The translations under genes and the position numbers were made by a program. Below are positions 3,452-8,485 of a stretch of 8,650 nt of DNA, piece by piece. Positions within the stretch are counted from its first letter, which is position 1; each line of letters begins with the position of its first letter. The notes under the pieces were generated by a model. It was not told the DNA's origin and searched no databases. It was given only the letters and a program-made list of their open reading frames with translations. The stretch is from B21-G16 sp003644825 [NCBI: Candidatus Zhuqueibacterota bacterium]. GTDB taxonomy: Bacteria; SM23-31; B21-G16. Where the stretch lies: positions 1 through 8,650 of the forward strand of contig QNDJ01000046.1 in assembly GCA_003644825.1 (NCBI GenBank), in the 5' to 3' direction.

Positions 3452-3835
3452 TCAATCCTTGCTGGAATAGAATCTGAAGTCATGGGTTTTAGTGTATCCT
3501 GCCATAACCGTTCCTCTGTAGTATTGAGTCCAGGATCTTGTTATTGGATTTTCAGCCCTTACCCTGTAATTATACGATCCCCTCATTTCTTTAATTTTAA
3601 ACAGATACTGTCCATTTTCATCAGTTGCAATAGTTGAGGAAGACCATACAAGCTGGGTACCAACATCTGAACCTCTGACCCTTGCATATCCATACTCAAC
3701 CCTCACATTCGGTGTAGGCTGGTCATCGACATACACTATTCCTTTAATCGTACAGAAACCACCCGATTCACTATTTGTTCCTTTACTACAAAAGGCAAAA
3801 AGCAAAATAATAAAAACAAACTTAAGTTTCTTCAT
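3452..3835 (-). CDS. Small probable lipoprotein with a carboxypeptidase-regulatory-like domain
   Basis: This 127-residue protein starts with a short export signal (MKKLKF, then a hydrophobic stretch) ending at Cys16 in L-F-A-F-C-S. Cys16 is a likely lipidation site, though Phe at -1 is not typical of a lipobox. Residues about 27-125 resemble one beta-sandwich of the carboxypeptidase-regulatory-like/transthyretin type: G-I-V-Y-V-D-D-Q-P-x-P-N-V near 33-45, and T-D-E-N-G-Q-Y-L-F near 71-79, followed by Y-x-V-x-A. Such domains usually sit in larger surface proteins; here one stands alone, so it is probably an envelope-anchored protein of unknown role. A very G-rich site (GGGGGAGGGGG, 3843-3853) precedes the ATG. 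TATAAT on the minus strand (3893-3888) could be a -10 box, without a clear -35. The gap to the upstream aminotransferase is 85 bp, so the genes may or may not be co-transcribed. Confidence 0.75.
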   Translation of the reverse strand: MKKLKFVFIILLFAFCSKGTNSESGGFCTIKGIVYVDDQPTPNVRVEYGYARVRGSDVGTQLVWSSSTIATDENGQYLFKIKEMRGSYNYRVRAENPITRSWTQYYRGTVMAGYTKTHDFRFYSSKD

Positions 3836-3920: not shown

Positions 3921-5192
3921 TTATCTGGACTTTACAAGGTCATTCAGGATTTCGAGGGCAAGGTCTATTTCTTCAAAACTATTGTAAATGTGAGTCGACA
4001 GACGAATCCAGTTATAGCCATATTCAGCAACAAGCCTGTAATAAATTTTCCCTTTTTCTTTAAGGGCTTTTCCTATTTCCTGATGTGTGAATCCATCAAT
4101 GGAGAAACTACAGGCACCTGAATTCATATCATCTCTCATCGGAGTTTTAAGCTGAAGTCCTTTAATTTTAATCAGATTTTCTCTCAGATACCTGTTTAAC
4201 TGTCTTATTCTTTTTTCTATTCTATCCTTTCCAATAGCATTTTGAAATTCAACGGCTTTCCATAAACCATAAATTAGCTGGTCATTTCTCGTTCCAACCC
4301 TGTTAAATCGTTCAGCTTTAAGGCTTAAATCATCCCAGCCACCGCTTGCAATTGTTGTCCACAACCTATCAGCCATATCTTCCTTAATAAACAGGAGTCC
4401 AGTTCCTTTTGGTGCACACAACCATTTATGAGTGCTGGTAGCATAAAAGTCACAACCAAGGTCATGGATATTAACGTTCAACATTCCCGGTGGGTGTGCC
4501 CCATCCACAACAAGAATTACACCTTTATCCCTGCACAATCTTGAAAACTCTTTAACAGGAAAAAGTAGACCCGTTGTAAAAGTAACATGACAGATACTGA
4601 TAACCTTTGTTTTCCTGGATATTGCGTCATTGAAAGGATTCAGAAGGTCTGCTGGTTCTTTCGGCGGTGCAGGAAGTGATATCCGCTTTATAATACACCC
4701 ATATCTTTTTGCTTTCAGCTCCCACATACATAACCCACCCACATGTTCATGGGTTGTAGTAAGGATTTCGTCCCCGGGTTTCAGGTCAAGACCATTGGCA
4801 ACAAAGTTCATTCCTTCAGTTGTATTTCTTGTAAAAACGAGCTCATCAGTGTTAATTCCTATAAAATCTGCCACATCCTTTTTAAGCTTTTTCCAGTCCC
4901 AGCCAAACCCTTCAAAAAACTGTTCTCTTTTAATCATTTTTTCAAAAACAGCATTCATAACATACATAGGAACACTACCAGCCGTACCTGTATTAAGATA
5001 AACACCGCCTCTAATATAAAACTGTTTTCTAACCATTTTCCAGTAATCTTCATCAAAGGGAGAAGATGGTGTTTTGAGTTCTTTCAGCATAGACTCACTA
5101 TCTCTTGAAAAAAGTTTCATTCCCTTAACTAATGGTATACCAAGCATATTTGAGGCTAAAGCGGCTTTTAAAAAGGTTCTTCTGCTGAACAT
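3921..5192 (-). CDS. Tat-exported class V aminotransferase (isopenicillin-N-epimerase/cysteine-desulfurase-like PLP enzyme)
   Basis: From the ATG at 5192 the protein has 423 residues. Residues 3-9 read SRRTFLK, a textbook twin-arginine motif, followed by a hydrophobic stretch to about 22, so the folded, cofactor-loaded enzyme is probably exported. The rest is a fold-type I PLP protein of the class V group: TRNTTEG at 121-127 (cofactor phosphate region), THEHVGG at 147-153, VVDGAHPPG at 228-236 with Asp230 for the pyridine nitrogen, STHKW with the Schiff-base Lys256, GTRN at 300-303, and IRLSTHIYN near 396-404 with the likely carboxylate-binding Arg397. Length and motif order fit isopenicillin-N epimerase-like proteins, but racemase, lyase and transaminase activities all occur in this family and the substrate cannot be told. 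A longer reading from TTG at 5210 is possible but would swallow the ribosome-binding site. A possible promoter and the origin-like region lie upstream. Confidence 0.9.
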   Translation of the reverse strand: MFSRRTFLKAALASNMLGIPLVKGMKLFSRDSESMLKELKTPSSPFDEDYWKMVRKQFYIRGGVYLNTGTAGSVPMYVMNAVFEKMIKREQFFEGFGWDWKKLKKDVADFIGINTDELVFTRNTTEGMNFVANGLDLKPGDEILTTTHEHVGGLCMWELKAKRYGCIIKRISLPAPPKEPADLLNPFNDAISRKTKVISICHVTFTTGLLFPVKEFSRLCRDKGVILVVDGAHPPGMLNVNIHDLGCDFYATSTHKWLCAPKGTGLLFIKEDMADRLWTTIASGGWDDLSLKAERFNRVGTRNDQLIYGLWKAVEFQNAIGKDRIEKRIRQLNRYLRENLIKIKGLQLKTPMRDDMNSGACSFSIDGFTHQEIGKALKEKGKIYYRLVAEYGYNWIRLSTHIYNSFEEIDLALEILNDLVKSR

Positions 5193-5196
5193 ATTT

Positions 5197-5204
5197 CCTC
5201 CTTT
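5197..5204 (-). promoter_or_regulatory. Ribosome-binding site that fixes the aminotransferase start at 5192
   Basis: AAAGGAGG on the minus strand ends four bases before the ATG at 5192-5190. The alternative TTG start at 5210 would place this site inside the coding region, and it would add six residues ahead of the Tat motif. The ocd-family gene shows the same short spacing. Confidence 0.85.
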
Positions 5205-5220
5205 ACTCAATTTTATTAGA

Positions 5221-5251
5221 ATAATAAACCTGTGTTAGCAATATTTGTCAG
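5221..5251 (-). promoter_or_regulatory. Possible promoter of the aminotransferase gene
   Basis: On the minus strand CTGACA (5251-5246) resembles a -35 box and TATTAT (5226-5221) a -10 box, but the spacer is 19 bp, longer than ideal. A start near 5214 would leave a short leader carrying the ribosome-binding site. Confidence 0.25.
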
Positions 5252-5359
5252 AAATCATTTTTAATATAAACAAATAAATTATAAAATCAAGGATATTATA
5301 TAAACCCGGTTTCAGTTTTATAAACTAAAATCCAGTATAATAATAAAGAAAAGAAGAAA

Positions 5360-5368
5360 TTATCCACA
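5360..5368 (+). promoter_or_regulatory. Perfect consensus DnaA box
   Basis: TTATCCACA matches the classical high-affinity DnaA box at all nine positions. It lies in an AT-rich stretch about 150 bp from the tandem boxes. Confidence 0.65.
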
Positions 5369-5513
5369 AAGTAAATGTATAAACAGTTTTACTTATAGAA
5401 AAGGTTTAAAGACAGCCTGAAGTATGAATTCAAGCTCAAAATAAGGCTAAATTTATAAAAAATAACAGAGAATACTATCAGAAAAGAAAATACCTTAATA
5501 CTACTGAGGGGAG

Positions 5514-5533
5514 TTATCAACAAGTTATCAACA
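5514..5533 (+). promoter_or_regulatory. Tandem pair of near-consensus DnaA boxes
   Basis: TTATCAACA occurs at 5514-5522 and again at 5525-5533, same orientation, start-to-start spacing 11 bp (about one helical turn), so both would face the same side of the DNA. Each differs from TTATNCACA at one position. A GC-rich block (GAGGGGAG, 5506-5513) abuts the first box, with TTAATACTACT at 5495-5505 beyond it. Confidence 0.6.
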
Positions 5534-5555
5534 TTGTATCAGGGCATAAAATGAA

Positions 5556-5571
5556 TGTTTCACGTGAAACA
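5556..5571. promoter_or_regulatory. parS: Perfect parS site (ParB/Spo0J binding site)
   Basis: TGTTTCACGTGAAACA is identical to the widely conserved 16-bp chromosomal parS consensus; the palindrome extends to 18 bp with A5555 and T5572. ParB loads here and spreads, and SMC is recruited for origin segregation. It lies 12 bases past the mnmG stop codon and 22 bases from the nearest DnaA box. No parA or parB gene is in the window. Confidence 0.9.
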
Positions 5572-5583
5572 TCAGCTCAACAG

Positions 5584-7464
5584 TTAAAATTTCTCTATCC
5601 TCTTAATGTGAATTAGCAGAGCTGTAATATCAGCAGGAGAAACCCCTGAAATCCTTGATGCCTGGGCAACCGAAACTGGTCTCAACTTATTCAGTTTCTC
5701 CCTTGCTTCTTTCGATATAGATTCAATTTTCATATAATTGATATTTTCTGGAATTCTCTGGTTCTCAAATTTCATCGACTTCTCAATAAGGTCTATTTGT
5801 TTTTTTATGTACCCTTCATATTTTACTTCCATTTCTATCTGAAAATCAAAAGGTTTTGCTGAGGTTATAAACTCTTTTTCTCTATCAGTAAAAATATCCA
5901 ATTCCTTAATATTATTATAAGAAATCTGGGGCCTTTTGAGGATATTATACAGGTTCTCCGTATTTGAAATGGGAGTTGTTCCTCTCCTTTCAAGAAGAAA
6001 ATTAATATCTTCTGGTTTTACCCTTTTTTTCTTCAACAATTTTATTATATCCTCTCTTAATTTTCTTTTTTTAACCATTTTAGAATAGACATTTTCATCA
6101 ATCAGACCTAACTTATACCCGTAAGGCATCAATCTTTCATCTGCATTATCCTGCCTGAGAAGCAGCCTGAACTCTGCCCTCGAAGTAAATAGCCTGTACG
6201 GTTCCTCCGTCCCTTTATTAACAAGGTCATCTATCAACACACCTATATAAGACTCAGACCTCTTAAGAATAAACGGTTCTTCATTCCTAATTTTAAGAAT
6301 AGCATTAATACCAGCCATAATCCCCTGAGCAGCAGCTTCTTCATATCCCGAAGTTCCATTTACCTGACCCGCAAAAAAAAGATTCTCTATCTTTCTTGAT
6401 TCAAGGTTCATCTTTATCTGTTCCGGAGGAAAATAGTCATATTCAATAGCGTATCCAAACCTTGTAATTTCAACATGTTCAAGTCCTCTGATTGATCTTA
6501 ATCCCTTCAGTTGAATATCTTCAGGCAGGCTCGTGGAAAAACCATTTACATAATATTCACAGGTGTCCAATCCTTCAGGTTCAAGAAAAATCTGATGCCT
6601 GTTTTTATCTGAAAATCTATATATTTTCAATTCCACAGAAGGGCAATACCTTGGTCCTGTTCCAGTTATAACCCCTGTGAATAAAGGAGACCTGTCAAAT
6701 CCTGATTCAAGAATCTTATGGGTTTCCGGGTTTGTGTAAGTTAAATAACAAGGAACCTGCTCACGTTCTATTTTTTCAGTCTGAAAAGAAAACGGCTGTG
6801 GGTTTTCATCACCGGGTTGAACCTCACACCTTTCCCAATCAACAGTTTTTCCATCTATTCTTGGTGGTGTACCTGTTTTAAATCTTTTGCTTTTTATTCC
6901 TGATTTTTCCAAAGATTCTGTCAGTCCAGTAGCTGCAAATTCACCAGCTCTACCCGCTCGAAAATTTTTTAATCCTATATGAATCAAGCCATTTAAAAAT
7001 GTCCCGCCAGAAACTATAACAGTTTTCCCTTTAAATATTGTTCCAGTAAGGGTTTTAACACCGTAAACTTTTTCTTTATTTGCAATAATTTCTCTTACCA
7101 TTCCTTCTTTTAAATCAATATTTTCGGTTTCTTCTATTGCTTTCCTCATTATCTTTGAATAAAGGAGTCTGTCCTCCTGAGCCCTTGGCGACCAGACAGC
7201 AGGTCCTTTTGATTTATTTAGCATTCTGAACTGGATACCAGCTTTATCACTTACCTTTGCCATTTCTCCACCAAGAGCATCAATTTCCCTGACAAGATGA
7301 CCTTTTGCAAGTCCACCTATTGCCGGATTACAGGACATCTGAGCTATAGTAAAAAGATTCATCGTTATTAATAGAACCTTTCCCCCCATTCTTGCAGCAG
7401 CCAGCGCCGCCTCACAACCAGCATGCCCCGCACCAATGACTATTACATCATATTCTTTATCCAT
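5584..7464 (-). CDS. mnmG: tRNA uridine-5-carboxymethylaminomethyl modification enzyme MnmG
   Basis: MnmG (GidA) is the FAD-dependent partner of MnmE; together they install the carboxymethylaminomethyl group on wobble uridine 34 of certain tRNAs in the cytoplasm. The 626-residue length is normal. Residues 7-18 hold the FAD-binding G11-x-G13-x-x-G16 fold, with the conserved SCNPAIGGLAKGH at 44-56. Both family signatures are intact: GPRYCPSVELKIYRF at 270-284 and AGQ...GYEEAAAQG...AGINA at 365-388. Cys45 and Cys274 correspond to the two cysteines implicated in catalysis in the E. coli enzyme. The C-terminal helical domain ends with the usual GVSPADITALL region (607-617), which contacts MnmE. 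The start is firm by homology, although the only Shine-Dalgarno-like bases (AAAAGG) touch the ATG. The upstream ocd-family gene ends 52 bp away on the same strand, suggesting co-transcription. The common downstream partner rsmG is absent; parS and DnaA boxes follow instead. Confidence 0.98.
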   Translation of the reverse strand: MDKEYDVIVIGAGHAGCEAALAAARMGGKVLLITMNLFTIAQMSCNPAIGGLAKGHLVREIDALGGEMAKVSDKAGIQFRMLNKSKGPAVWSPRAQEDRLLYSKIMRKAIEETENIDLKEGMVREIIANKEKVYGVKTLTGTIFKGKTVIVSGGTFLNGLIHIGLKNFRAGRAGEFAATGLTESLEKSGIKSKRFKTGTPPRIDGKTVDWERCEVQPGDENPQPFSFQTEKIEREQVPCYLTYTNPETHKILESGFDRSPLFTGVITGTGPRYCPSVELKIYRFSDKNRHQIFLEPEGLDTCEYYVNGFSTSLPEDIQLKGLRSIRGLEHVEITRFGYAIEYDYFPPEQIKMNLESRKIENLFFAGQVNGTSGYEEAAAQGIMAGINAILKIRNEEPFILKRSESYIGVLIDDLVNKGTEEPYRLFTSRAEFRLLLRQDNADERLMPYGYKLGLIDENVYSKMVKKRKLREDIIKLLKKKRVKPEDINFLLERRGTTPISNTENLYNILKRPQISYNNIKELDIFTDREKEFITSAKPFDFQIEMEVKYEGYIKKQIDLIEKSMKFENQRIPENINYMKIESISKEAREKLNKLRPVSVAQASRISGVSPADITALLIHIKRIEKF

Positions 7465-7516: not shown

Positions 7517-8485
7517 TCAAAGGGGTAGTTTCACCCCTTTATTGAGTTCAACCGCCTTTCTATAAATAAGAGAAGCTGTAGCAACATCTTCAATTGCCAG
7601 ACCAAGGTTCATCGTCATAGTCCTTTCATAAGGTTCTTCCCTTCCATTAACTTTCCCGGCTACAATATCTCCAAGGTCAATAATCTTTTCAGGAAGGTTT
7701 TTAAAATAACCAATAGATTTATAATAGTTCAATTGTTTTATATCATCTGTAACAAATTTATCAGCTAACTTCATAGCATCAGGTTTCCAGTAGGAATCAA
7801 AATCAATAGCTGAAGCAAAACAACCTTTCTCAAACCATTCTTTATCAATTGTTGGTGAAGGAGTCTTCAGGATTGGACCGGCAGTTACCACTACATCCAT
7901 TCCAATAACAGCTTTTTCCGGGGAATCCACAGGAATGATATCAAATTTATAAATACCCCTCATATCTTCAATATATTTTGATAGATTTTCCCTATTTATA
8001 TCATAAGCATAGACCTTTTTTATATTTTTTAGCACTATATTGAGTGCTTCAAGGTTTGTCCTTCCCTGAACACCACATCCTAAAATACCGACCTTTTCAG
8101 AATCCATTCTGGCAAGAAACTTTGCAGCAACGGCAGTGGCAGCTCCTGTTCTTTTTCCTGTAATCCAGGTGCAATCCATTACTGAAACAGGAAATCCCGT
8201 CTCAGTATCATTTAAAATAAAAAGTCCTGATATATAGGGAAGACCCCTTTTATTATTTTCTGGAAATCCACTCACCCATTTCAATCCTGCATATTTTATT
8301 TCAGGAAGATATGCAGGCATAGCATGAATGAATGCATCCTTACCGGGATGAACACCGGGTTTCGGTGGCATCTCAAAATTTCCTTCACTTTTGCTGATAA
8401 AGGCTTTCTCAACTGCATCAATTATCTCTTCCATTGAAAGATTTATCTCTTCCACATCTTTCTTTGAAAGATATAACAATTCCAT
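7517..8485 (-). CDS. Ornithine cyclodeaminase/mu-crystallin-family NAD(P)-dependent enzyme
   Basis: The 322-residue protein is full length for this family, which includes ornithine cyclodeaminase, alanine dehydrogenase and ketimine or imine reductases; all use NAD(P) on amino or imino acids in the cytoplasm. An N-terminal dimerisation part carries AGLKWVSGFPEN at 66-77, with Lys69, and GKRTGAATA at 110-118, with Arg112. The Rossmann segment has G136-C-G138-V-Q-G141, and AIDFDSYWKPD at 226-236 holds Asp228. From memory, Lys69, Arg112 and Asp228 match the substrate-site residues of the Pseudomonas putida ornithine cyclodeaminase. Positions equivalent to that enzyme's Arg45 and Glu56 appear to be Val and Met by simple numbering, so ornithine may not be the substrate. 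AAGGAGG (8496-8490) precedes the ATG. It is likely in an operon with mnmG downstream and the partial gene upstream. Confidence 0.88.
   Translation of the reverse strand: MELLYLSKKDVEEINLSMEEIIDAVEKAFISKSEGNFEMPPKPGVHPGKDAFIHAMPAYLPEIKYAGLKWVSGFPENNKRGLPYISGLFILNDTETGFPVSVMDCTWITGKRTGAATAVAAKFLARMDSEKVGILGCGVQGRTNLEALNIVLKNIKKVYAYDINRENLSKYIEDMRGIYKFDIIPVDSPEKAVIGMDVVVTAGPILKTPSPTIDKEWFEKGCFASAIDFDSYWKPDAMKLADKFVTDDIKQLNYYKSIGYFKNLPEKIIDLGDIVAGKVNGREEPYERTMTMNLGLAIEDVATASLIYRKAVELNKGVKLPL
7519..7540 (-). other. Hairpin over the last codons of the ocd-family gene
   Basis: AAAGGGGT and ACCCCTTT form a perfect 8-pair stem with a six-base loop (GAAACT on the minus strand) spanning the last seven sense codons and the first two bases of the stop. 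No T run follows, so it is not a standard terminator. It could reduce read-through into mnmG or protect the mRNA 3' end. Confidence 0.5.

Follow-up and report, generated by a model that had tools for sequence, protein, structure and literature searches.

This locus raises the question of whether a bacterial chromosome begins its replication in a gap beside mnmG, away from dnaA. The first-pass annotation had read the gap as a putative chromosome origin (oriC) with its segregation site, given the DnaA boxes and the parS site it found there, and had suggested that the GC-skew minimum be sought at 5.2–5.6 kb. A stronger form of such a reading, considered here, takes the gap to be an active origin that moved recently from dnaA, with DnaA opening the DNA and ParB–parS segregating the copies. 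The window, that is, the whole 8,650-nucleotide stretch analyzed here, is contig C46 of a 2.48 Mb assembly (2,483,551 bases in 493 contigs, 83.6% complete). Its genes are an S9 prolyl oligopeptidase-like gene on the plus strand (111–2129) and, on the minus strand, a small lipoprotein-like ORF (3452–3835), a class-V aminotransferase gene with a Tat-type leader (3921–5210 from a TTG, or 3921–5192 from the ATG at 5192), mnmG (gidA; 5584–7464; TIGR00136, 870.7 bits) and a gene of the ornithine cyclodeaminase/mu-crystallin family (7517–8485). Between the aminotransferase gene and mnmG lies the gene-free, AT-rich stretch that holds the boxes and parS (5193–5583; 391 bp, 73.9% A+T). The aminotransferase leader includes SRRTFLKAA, by eye, and the protein matches SufS- and PvdN-type families below the family cut-offs; the lipoprotein-like ORF has a sub-cut-off match to the radical SAM-associated lipoprotein family TIGR04134. 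A search of the window against Rfam at the gathering score matched no RNA element. Among the genomes searched, none of the same family was found, and over the last 197 residues of MnmG the closest relative is 53% identical among the best 80 of 368 matches, from which records of the same or very near genomes may be missing.

The motifs on which the earlier reading rested are indeed all present between mnmG and the aminotransferase gene. A perfect DnaA box, TTATCCACA, occupies positions 5360–5368, and a tandem pair of boxes, each TTATCAACA, follows at 5514–5522 and 5525–5533, all three on the plus strand; the pair has an 11-bp period, and its region is an exact 11-nt direct repeat. A perfect parS, the 16-bp palindrome TGTTTCACGTGAAACA, lies 22 bp from the pair, at 5556–5571. 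When the 391 bp were shuffled 20,000 times with dinucleotide composition kept, three copies of TTATCMACA never arose, and two copies arose four times. The whole assembly contains 140 such boxes, compared with 96 matches to the reversed control, and among the first 100 places listed (contigs C1–C211), C46 alone has three within 500 bp. In the 85 contigs of this genome that were read (83 whole and two partially, for a total of 838,428 out of 2,483,551 bases, with 53 TTATCMACA boxes), the triple in the window spans 165 bp from first to last start and the next tightest spans 9.4 kb. Shuffles and assembly-wide counts together rule out chance clustering of the boxes, and the claim that the signals do not coincide by chance stands; the cluster expected of an oriC is there, and this sole tight triple of strong boxes in the contigs read, the perfect parS close by and the long AT-rich gap all speak for an active origin. 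The number of one-mismatch boxes across the whole window is unremarkable (6 found against 3.25 expected, with at least 6 in 20 of 200 shuffles); it is the clustering that is striking. The gap holds the only same-direction pair of TTATCMACA boxes with up to 30 bp between them in the assembly, and class relatives also have such pairs (one in G002, four in G003, one in G005, none in G001 and G004), so that a pair alone is no proof of an origin.

No other site in this assembly comes within one mismatch of the parS consensus, the runner-up having two, and the parS of the window sits where parS sits in the class. In all five class genomes in which mnmG was matched (this one and G002–G005), parS is no more than 150 bp away from the mnmG match, as the palindrome beside mnmG does in the window and as is seen for chromosomal parS sites of ParABS systems near mnmG and rsmG; in G001, neither mnmG nor parS was matched. 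Across 60 genomes, 15 (10 of the 54 outside the class) have a parS with at most one mismatch no farther than 150 bp from the mnmG match, 2 more have it within the mnmG match, and 36 have any parS match. Given this frequency, a parS beside mnmG is ordinary. In G023 (C117:77733) and G038 (C15:226730 and 226955), the coding match of mnmG itself contains perfect parS sites.

Unlike in the relatives, where parS is found at rsmG, this gene is gone from the window locus. In three of the four relatives, parS itself forms the first codons of rsmG, which reads MFHVKH or MFHMKH directly after mnmG (with a perfect parS in G002 and one mismatch each in G004 and G005), and in G003 it lies in the mnmG–rsmG gap, just before rsmG; G003 and G005 have a second parS copy before mnmG. 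On the minus strand of the window, parS likewise reads MFHVKH, like the first rsmG codons in the relatives, and is followed by eight residues (SFYALIQC) and a stop. We considered an rsmG pseudogene in the gap and rejected it, the frame stopping after SFYALIQC and no more rsmG likeness being visible by eye. The rsmG gene of this genome is on contig C47, where its start lacks the parS codons and its neighbors are a SIS-domain gene, which we take to be murQ-like, and, by eye, a candidate mfd. The six codons left in the window, together with rsmG on C47, indicate that a rearrangement split mnmG from rsmG just behind parS, which explains the absence of rsmG that had been pointed out correctly at the outset. 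The right end of C47 (L028 8378–8527) matches a dispersed repeat, up to ~150 bp of which recurs at 40 other places in the assembly. The ParB family TIGR00180 has no match in this 84%-complete assembly and is present in all five class relatives, so that little can be read from the absence of parB at this spot. In titles and abstracts, we found no paper on parS as the start of rsmG, nor on the geometry of boxes described below.

The boxes, too, have counterparts in the class, and these lie upstream of dnaA. In all four relatives in which that stretch is assembled (G001–G004, from two families), a single box is followed by a pair with an 11-bp period, at 142–152 bp from start to start, compared with 154 bp and the same period in the window. 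The three boxes of this module point away from dnaA in G001–G004, in a listing that took boxes of one direction (G003 also has one reversed box), and the boxes of the G001 and G003 modules are weaker matches. The resemblance of the window to these clusters thus extends to the single box, the distance of about 150 bp, the 11-bp pair and the common direction. The difference is that the module in the window adjoins the aminotransferase gene in place of dnaA and lacks one further box, present in all four relatives on the side toward dnaA. That the module geometry recurs upstream of dnaA in every one of these relatives favors an active origin, and as regards the proposal of an oriC beside mnmG, the arrangement of the boxes is borne out as conserved in the class, whereas the relatives carry it upstream of dnaA and not beside mnmG.

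The geometry is specific to the class. The strict pattern TTATYMACA-N130..160-TTATYMACA-NN-TTATYMACA, searched in 193 genomes, occurs in three, namely the present one (once), G002 (twice) and G004 (once), and not in the class genomes G001, G003 and G005; the reversed control gave none. A relaxed form matches at six places in 145 class loci (1.49 Mb), which are the window, the stretches upstream of dnaA in G001–G004 and a second site on contig C121 of G002, and at none in 76 other loci (1.21 Mb), again with none for the reversed control. Both patterns were designed after the sites had been seen, so that the evidence lies in their specificity and not in the matches to the founding sites. The second G002 module (C121 16211–16380; L030 10212–10381) is dnaA-free, occupies part of the 870-bp gap that precedes a response-regulator gene and aligns with the dnaA-upstream module of the same genome (z 17.6 and 19.1).

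The letters between the boxes align within family f3 (z 12.9 to 19.1) and are unalignable between families f2 and f3 (z -1.2 to 0.2), so that it is mainly the geometry that is conserved. Alignment reveals no homology of the window inter-box letters with the f3 modules, and we rejected such homology as a link; against the five other modules they score z 0.2, 0.3, 0.7 and 0.7, and 3.0 against G001 (4 of 300 shuffles). Given that f2 and f3 do not align either, the poor alignment does not single out the window. The 150 nt before the single box score z 3.1 with G002 (1 of 300 shuffles) and 0.6 and 1.1 with two others. The dnaA gene of this genome is on contig C161, which begins at the first codons of dnaA, such that the stretch upstream of it is unassembled and the copy in the window may be the only module of the genome. 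Contig-end matching did not extend the assembly past dnaA, the ends of C46, C157 and C161 matching no other contig, and the ATG22/MFS gene that lies opposite dnaA across the module in family f3 has no match in the assembly.

Strand composition bears directly on whether replication starts in the gap. In this genome, GC skew at third codon positions (GC3 skew) distinguishes a leading class of genes (+0.27) from a lagging one (-0.08; 587 genes on 85 contigs), and 77 of the 85 contigs have a clear strand polarity (>3 nats); in leave-one-out tests, only 4 of 292 genes disagree with the polarity of their contig at above 2 nats, and for no gene does the disagreement exceed 4 nats. In the window, the leading strand is the minus strand to the left and to the right of the gap, with GC3 skews of +0.46 for mnmG and +0.31 for the ornithine cyclodeaminase-family gene on the right, and of +0.15 for the aminotransferase gene and -0.23 (lagging) for the plus-strand S9 peptidase-like gene on the left. 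An origin at 5.4 kb accordingly scores 9.7–9.8 nats below a single polarity throughout, with mnmG alone giving 6.9 nats for the leading strand, in a test that right of the gap comprises two genes over 3 kb and to which the aminotransferase gene on the left, fitting the leading class by a weak 0.9 nats, says little. The plain cumulative skew of the window drops through 5.2–5.6 kb without a turn, so that the anticipated minimum fails locally and the leading-strand switch expected at an oriC is absent. The single polarity across the window implies that forks have long come from the right, the side upstream of mnmG, and an origin in the gap would set transcription of mnmG head-on to replication. 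Strand composition contradicts such an origin, the exception being a recent arrival of the module or of mnmG at this place.

The strand on which dnaA lies is a related point. The dnaA of this genome is on the lagging strand (GC3 skew -0.30; L003 2–1342) among leading-strand neighbors that appear TonB/Exb-like by eye, which indicates that it is not at a conventional origin and is a point for an active origin at the gap. In G002, the module upstream of dnaA gives -14.0 nats for an origin there. At the dnaA-free module on C121 of the same genome, an origin-type switch is weakly favored (+0.75 nats at the module and +2.4 at the best split), which again counts toward the active-origin reading. The skew of G003 is weak (leading +0.09, lagging -0.03), with an origin at dnaA at -0.03 nats. 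Thus, dnaA and the strand switch have parted at least in G002 and in the present genome (G000). In G003, a 578-bp gap before dnaN (L032 2590–3167) with divergent leading-strand genes gains +2.5 to +2.7 nats for an origin; the gaps before dnaN are 675 bp in G001 and 783 bp in G005. The top origin-type switch among the 85 contigs of this genome, at ~4.8 kb of C55 (L187; 5.6 nats), is not convincing as an origin: it sits within a run of plus-strand genes, and C55 has no TTATCMACA.

Origins of the Bacillus subtilis type contain a basal unwinding system (BUS) of DnaA boxes, a spacer and DnaA-trios, and the window resembles them in its tandem boxes of one orientation and its AT-rich, gene-free stretch. 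The layout of the E. coli origin supports the 3′ side of the boxes as the place for the trios. The rule in PMC8287927 is that three or more DnaA-trios in succession lie on the 3′ side of a DnaA box, no farther than 16 bp from it, and that paper reports no trios in 15% of predicted origins; the layout of boxes with trios on their 3′ side is also given in PMC7561715. By this rule, a scan of the window that accepted boxes with up to two mismatches turned up no trio run 3′ of a box, which, together with the missing dnaA and skew switch, sets it apart from BUS origins and argues against an active origin. The modules of the relatives do have such a run after the pair (G001, both copies of G002, G003 and G004); the pair upstream of rpmH in G003 has none. 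On the side opposite to the layout in those two papers, nine NAN triplets run up to the perfect box, and a G-rich stretch with CAG-TAG-TAT-TAA, noted by eye, lies beside the pair. We rejected these runs as DnaA-trios, being on the wrong side for that layout; with a reversed layout, should one be possible, they would favor an origin. Over the 60 bp 3′ of the pair, the A+T content is 67% in the window, compared with 75–88% in the three f3 copies compared, and this lower value is a further point against an active origin.

Considering the motifs, their clustering, the class-wide geometry, the strand bias and the placement of rsmG on a contig of its own, we prefer, at about even chances, the reading that the gap holds a copy of the class DnaA-box module, without dnaA, in the parS/mnmG region. 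The module in the window would have descended from the one upstream of dnaA, and the rearrangement that removed rsmG would have left parS behind at mnmG; the order of these rearrangements is likewise a proposal. In this reading, the tandem pair together with the distal single box would most likely bind DnaA cooperatively, and parS would be the loading site of ParB. The boxes and parS may then serve as a landmark of the origin region and as a sink or regulator for DnaA, and would not be a long-standing start site. In E. coli, datA and DARS are sites of DnaA titration or reactivation; the window resembles them in that its boxes cluster at a distance from both dnaA and the skew switch and differs from them in the layout of the boxes. 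Several points count against the preferred reading: a DnaA-box module away from dnaA and beside parS is just what an origin is expected to look like, a recent move would keep the old strand bias, and in G002 the module upstream of dnaA is also away from the skew switch. To these are added the few genes in the strand test around the gap, the chance that this genome has no other copy of the module, the tandem pairs elsewhere in the class and the trio-like triplets on the other side of the boxes.

An active, recently moved origin in the gap is the next most likely reading, less probable than the preferred one. A variant in which the origin jumped recently, such that dnaA moved to the lagging strand, the dnaA-less module by parS and mnmG fires and composition lags behind, appears doubtful; if it were true, contig C121 of G002 would be a second case in the class.

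The boxes might instead be an operator through which DnaA regulates the aminotransferase gene, with the nearness of parS incidental. Elsewhere, DnaA regulates its own gene, and the module in the window points away from the aminotransferase gene as it does from dnaA in the relatives. Promoter-like sites are found around the single box and toward the gene (6 against 2.4 expected in 5100–5700), although these are weak matches to the consensus. In two genera, ribonucleotide reductase genes likewise have closely packed DnaA boxes upstream (G003, L033 4949–4979; G005, L034 8077–8110), in line with such regulation. However, we know of no reason for cell-cycle control of an exported aminotransferase, and with the proximity of parS left unexplained, we consider the operator unlikely. 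Least probable of all, an assembly artefact fusing an mnmG–parS piece with an unrelated piece carrying the boxes would suit a fragmented, 84%-complete assembly of 493 contigs and a rearrangement that has no independent witness in a same-family genome, but the strand polarity is consistent along the whole contig, rsmG is elsewhere with other neighbors, as a true rearrangement predicts, and the ends of the contigs concerned match no others.

The locus bears on how origins are placed in this class. Origins in uncultured phyla are usually located by DnaA boxes and neighboring genes alone; the locus in the window passes this test and fails that of strand bias, and the G002 module upstream of dnaA lacks a skew switch, so that box clusters, the position of dnaA and parS can separate in the class. 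Automatic origin calls would therefore be unsafe in this class. The spacing of the boxes, kept where the letters between them have been lost, points to a requirement of DnaA for a particular DNA architecture.
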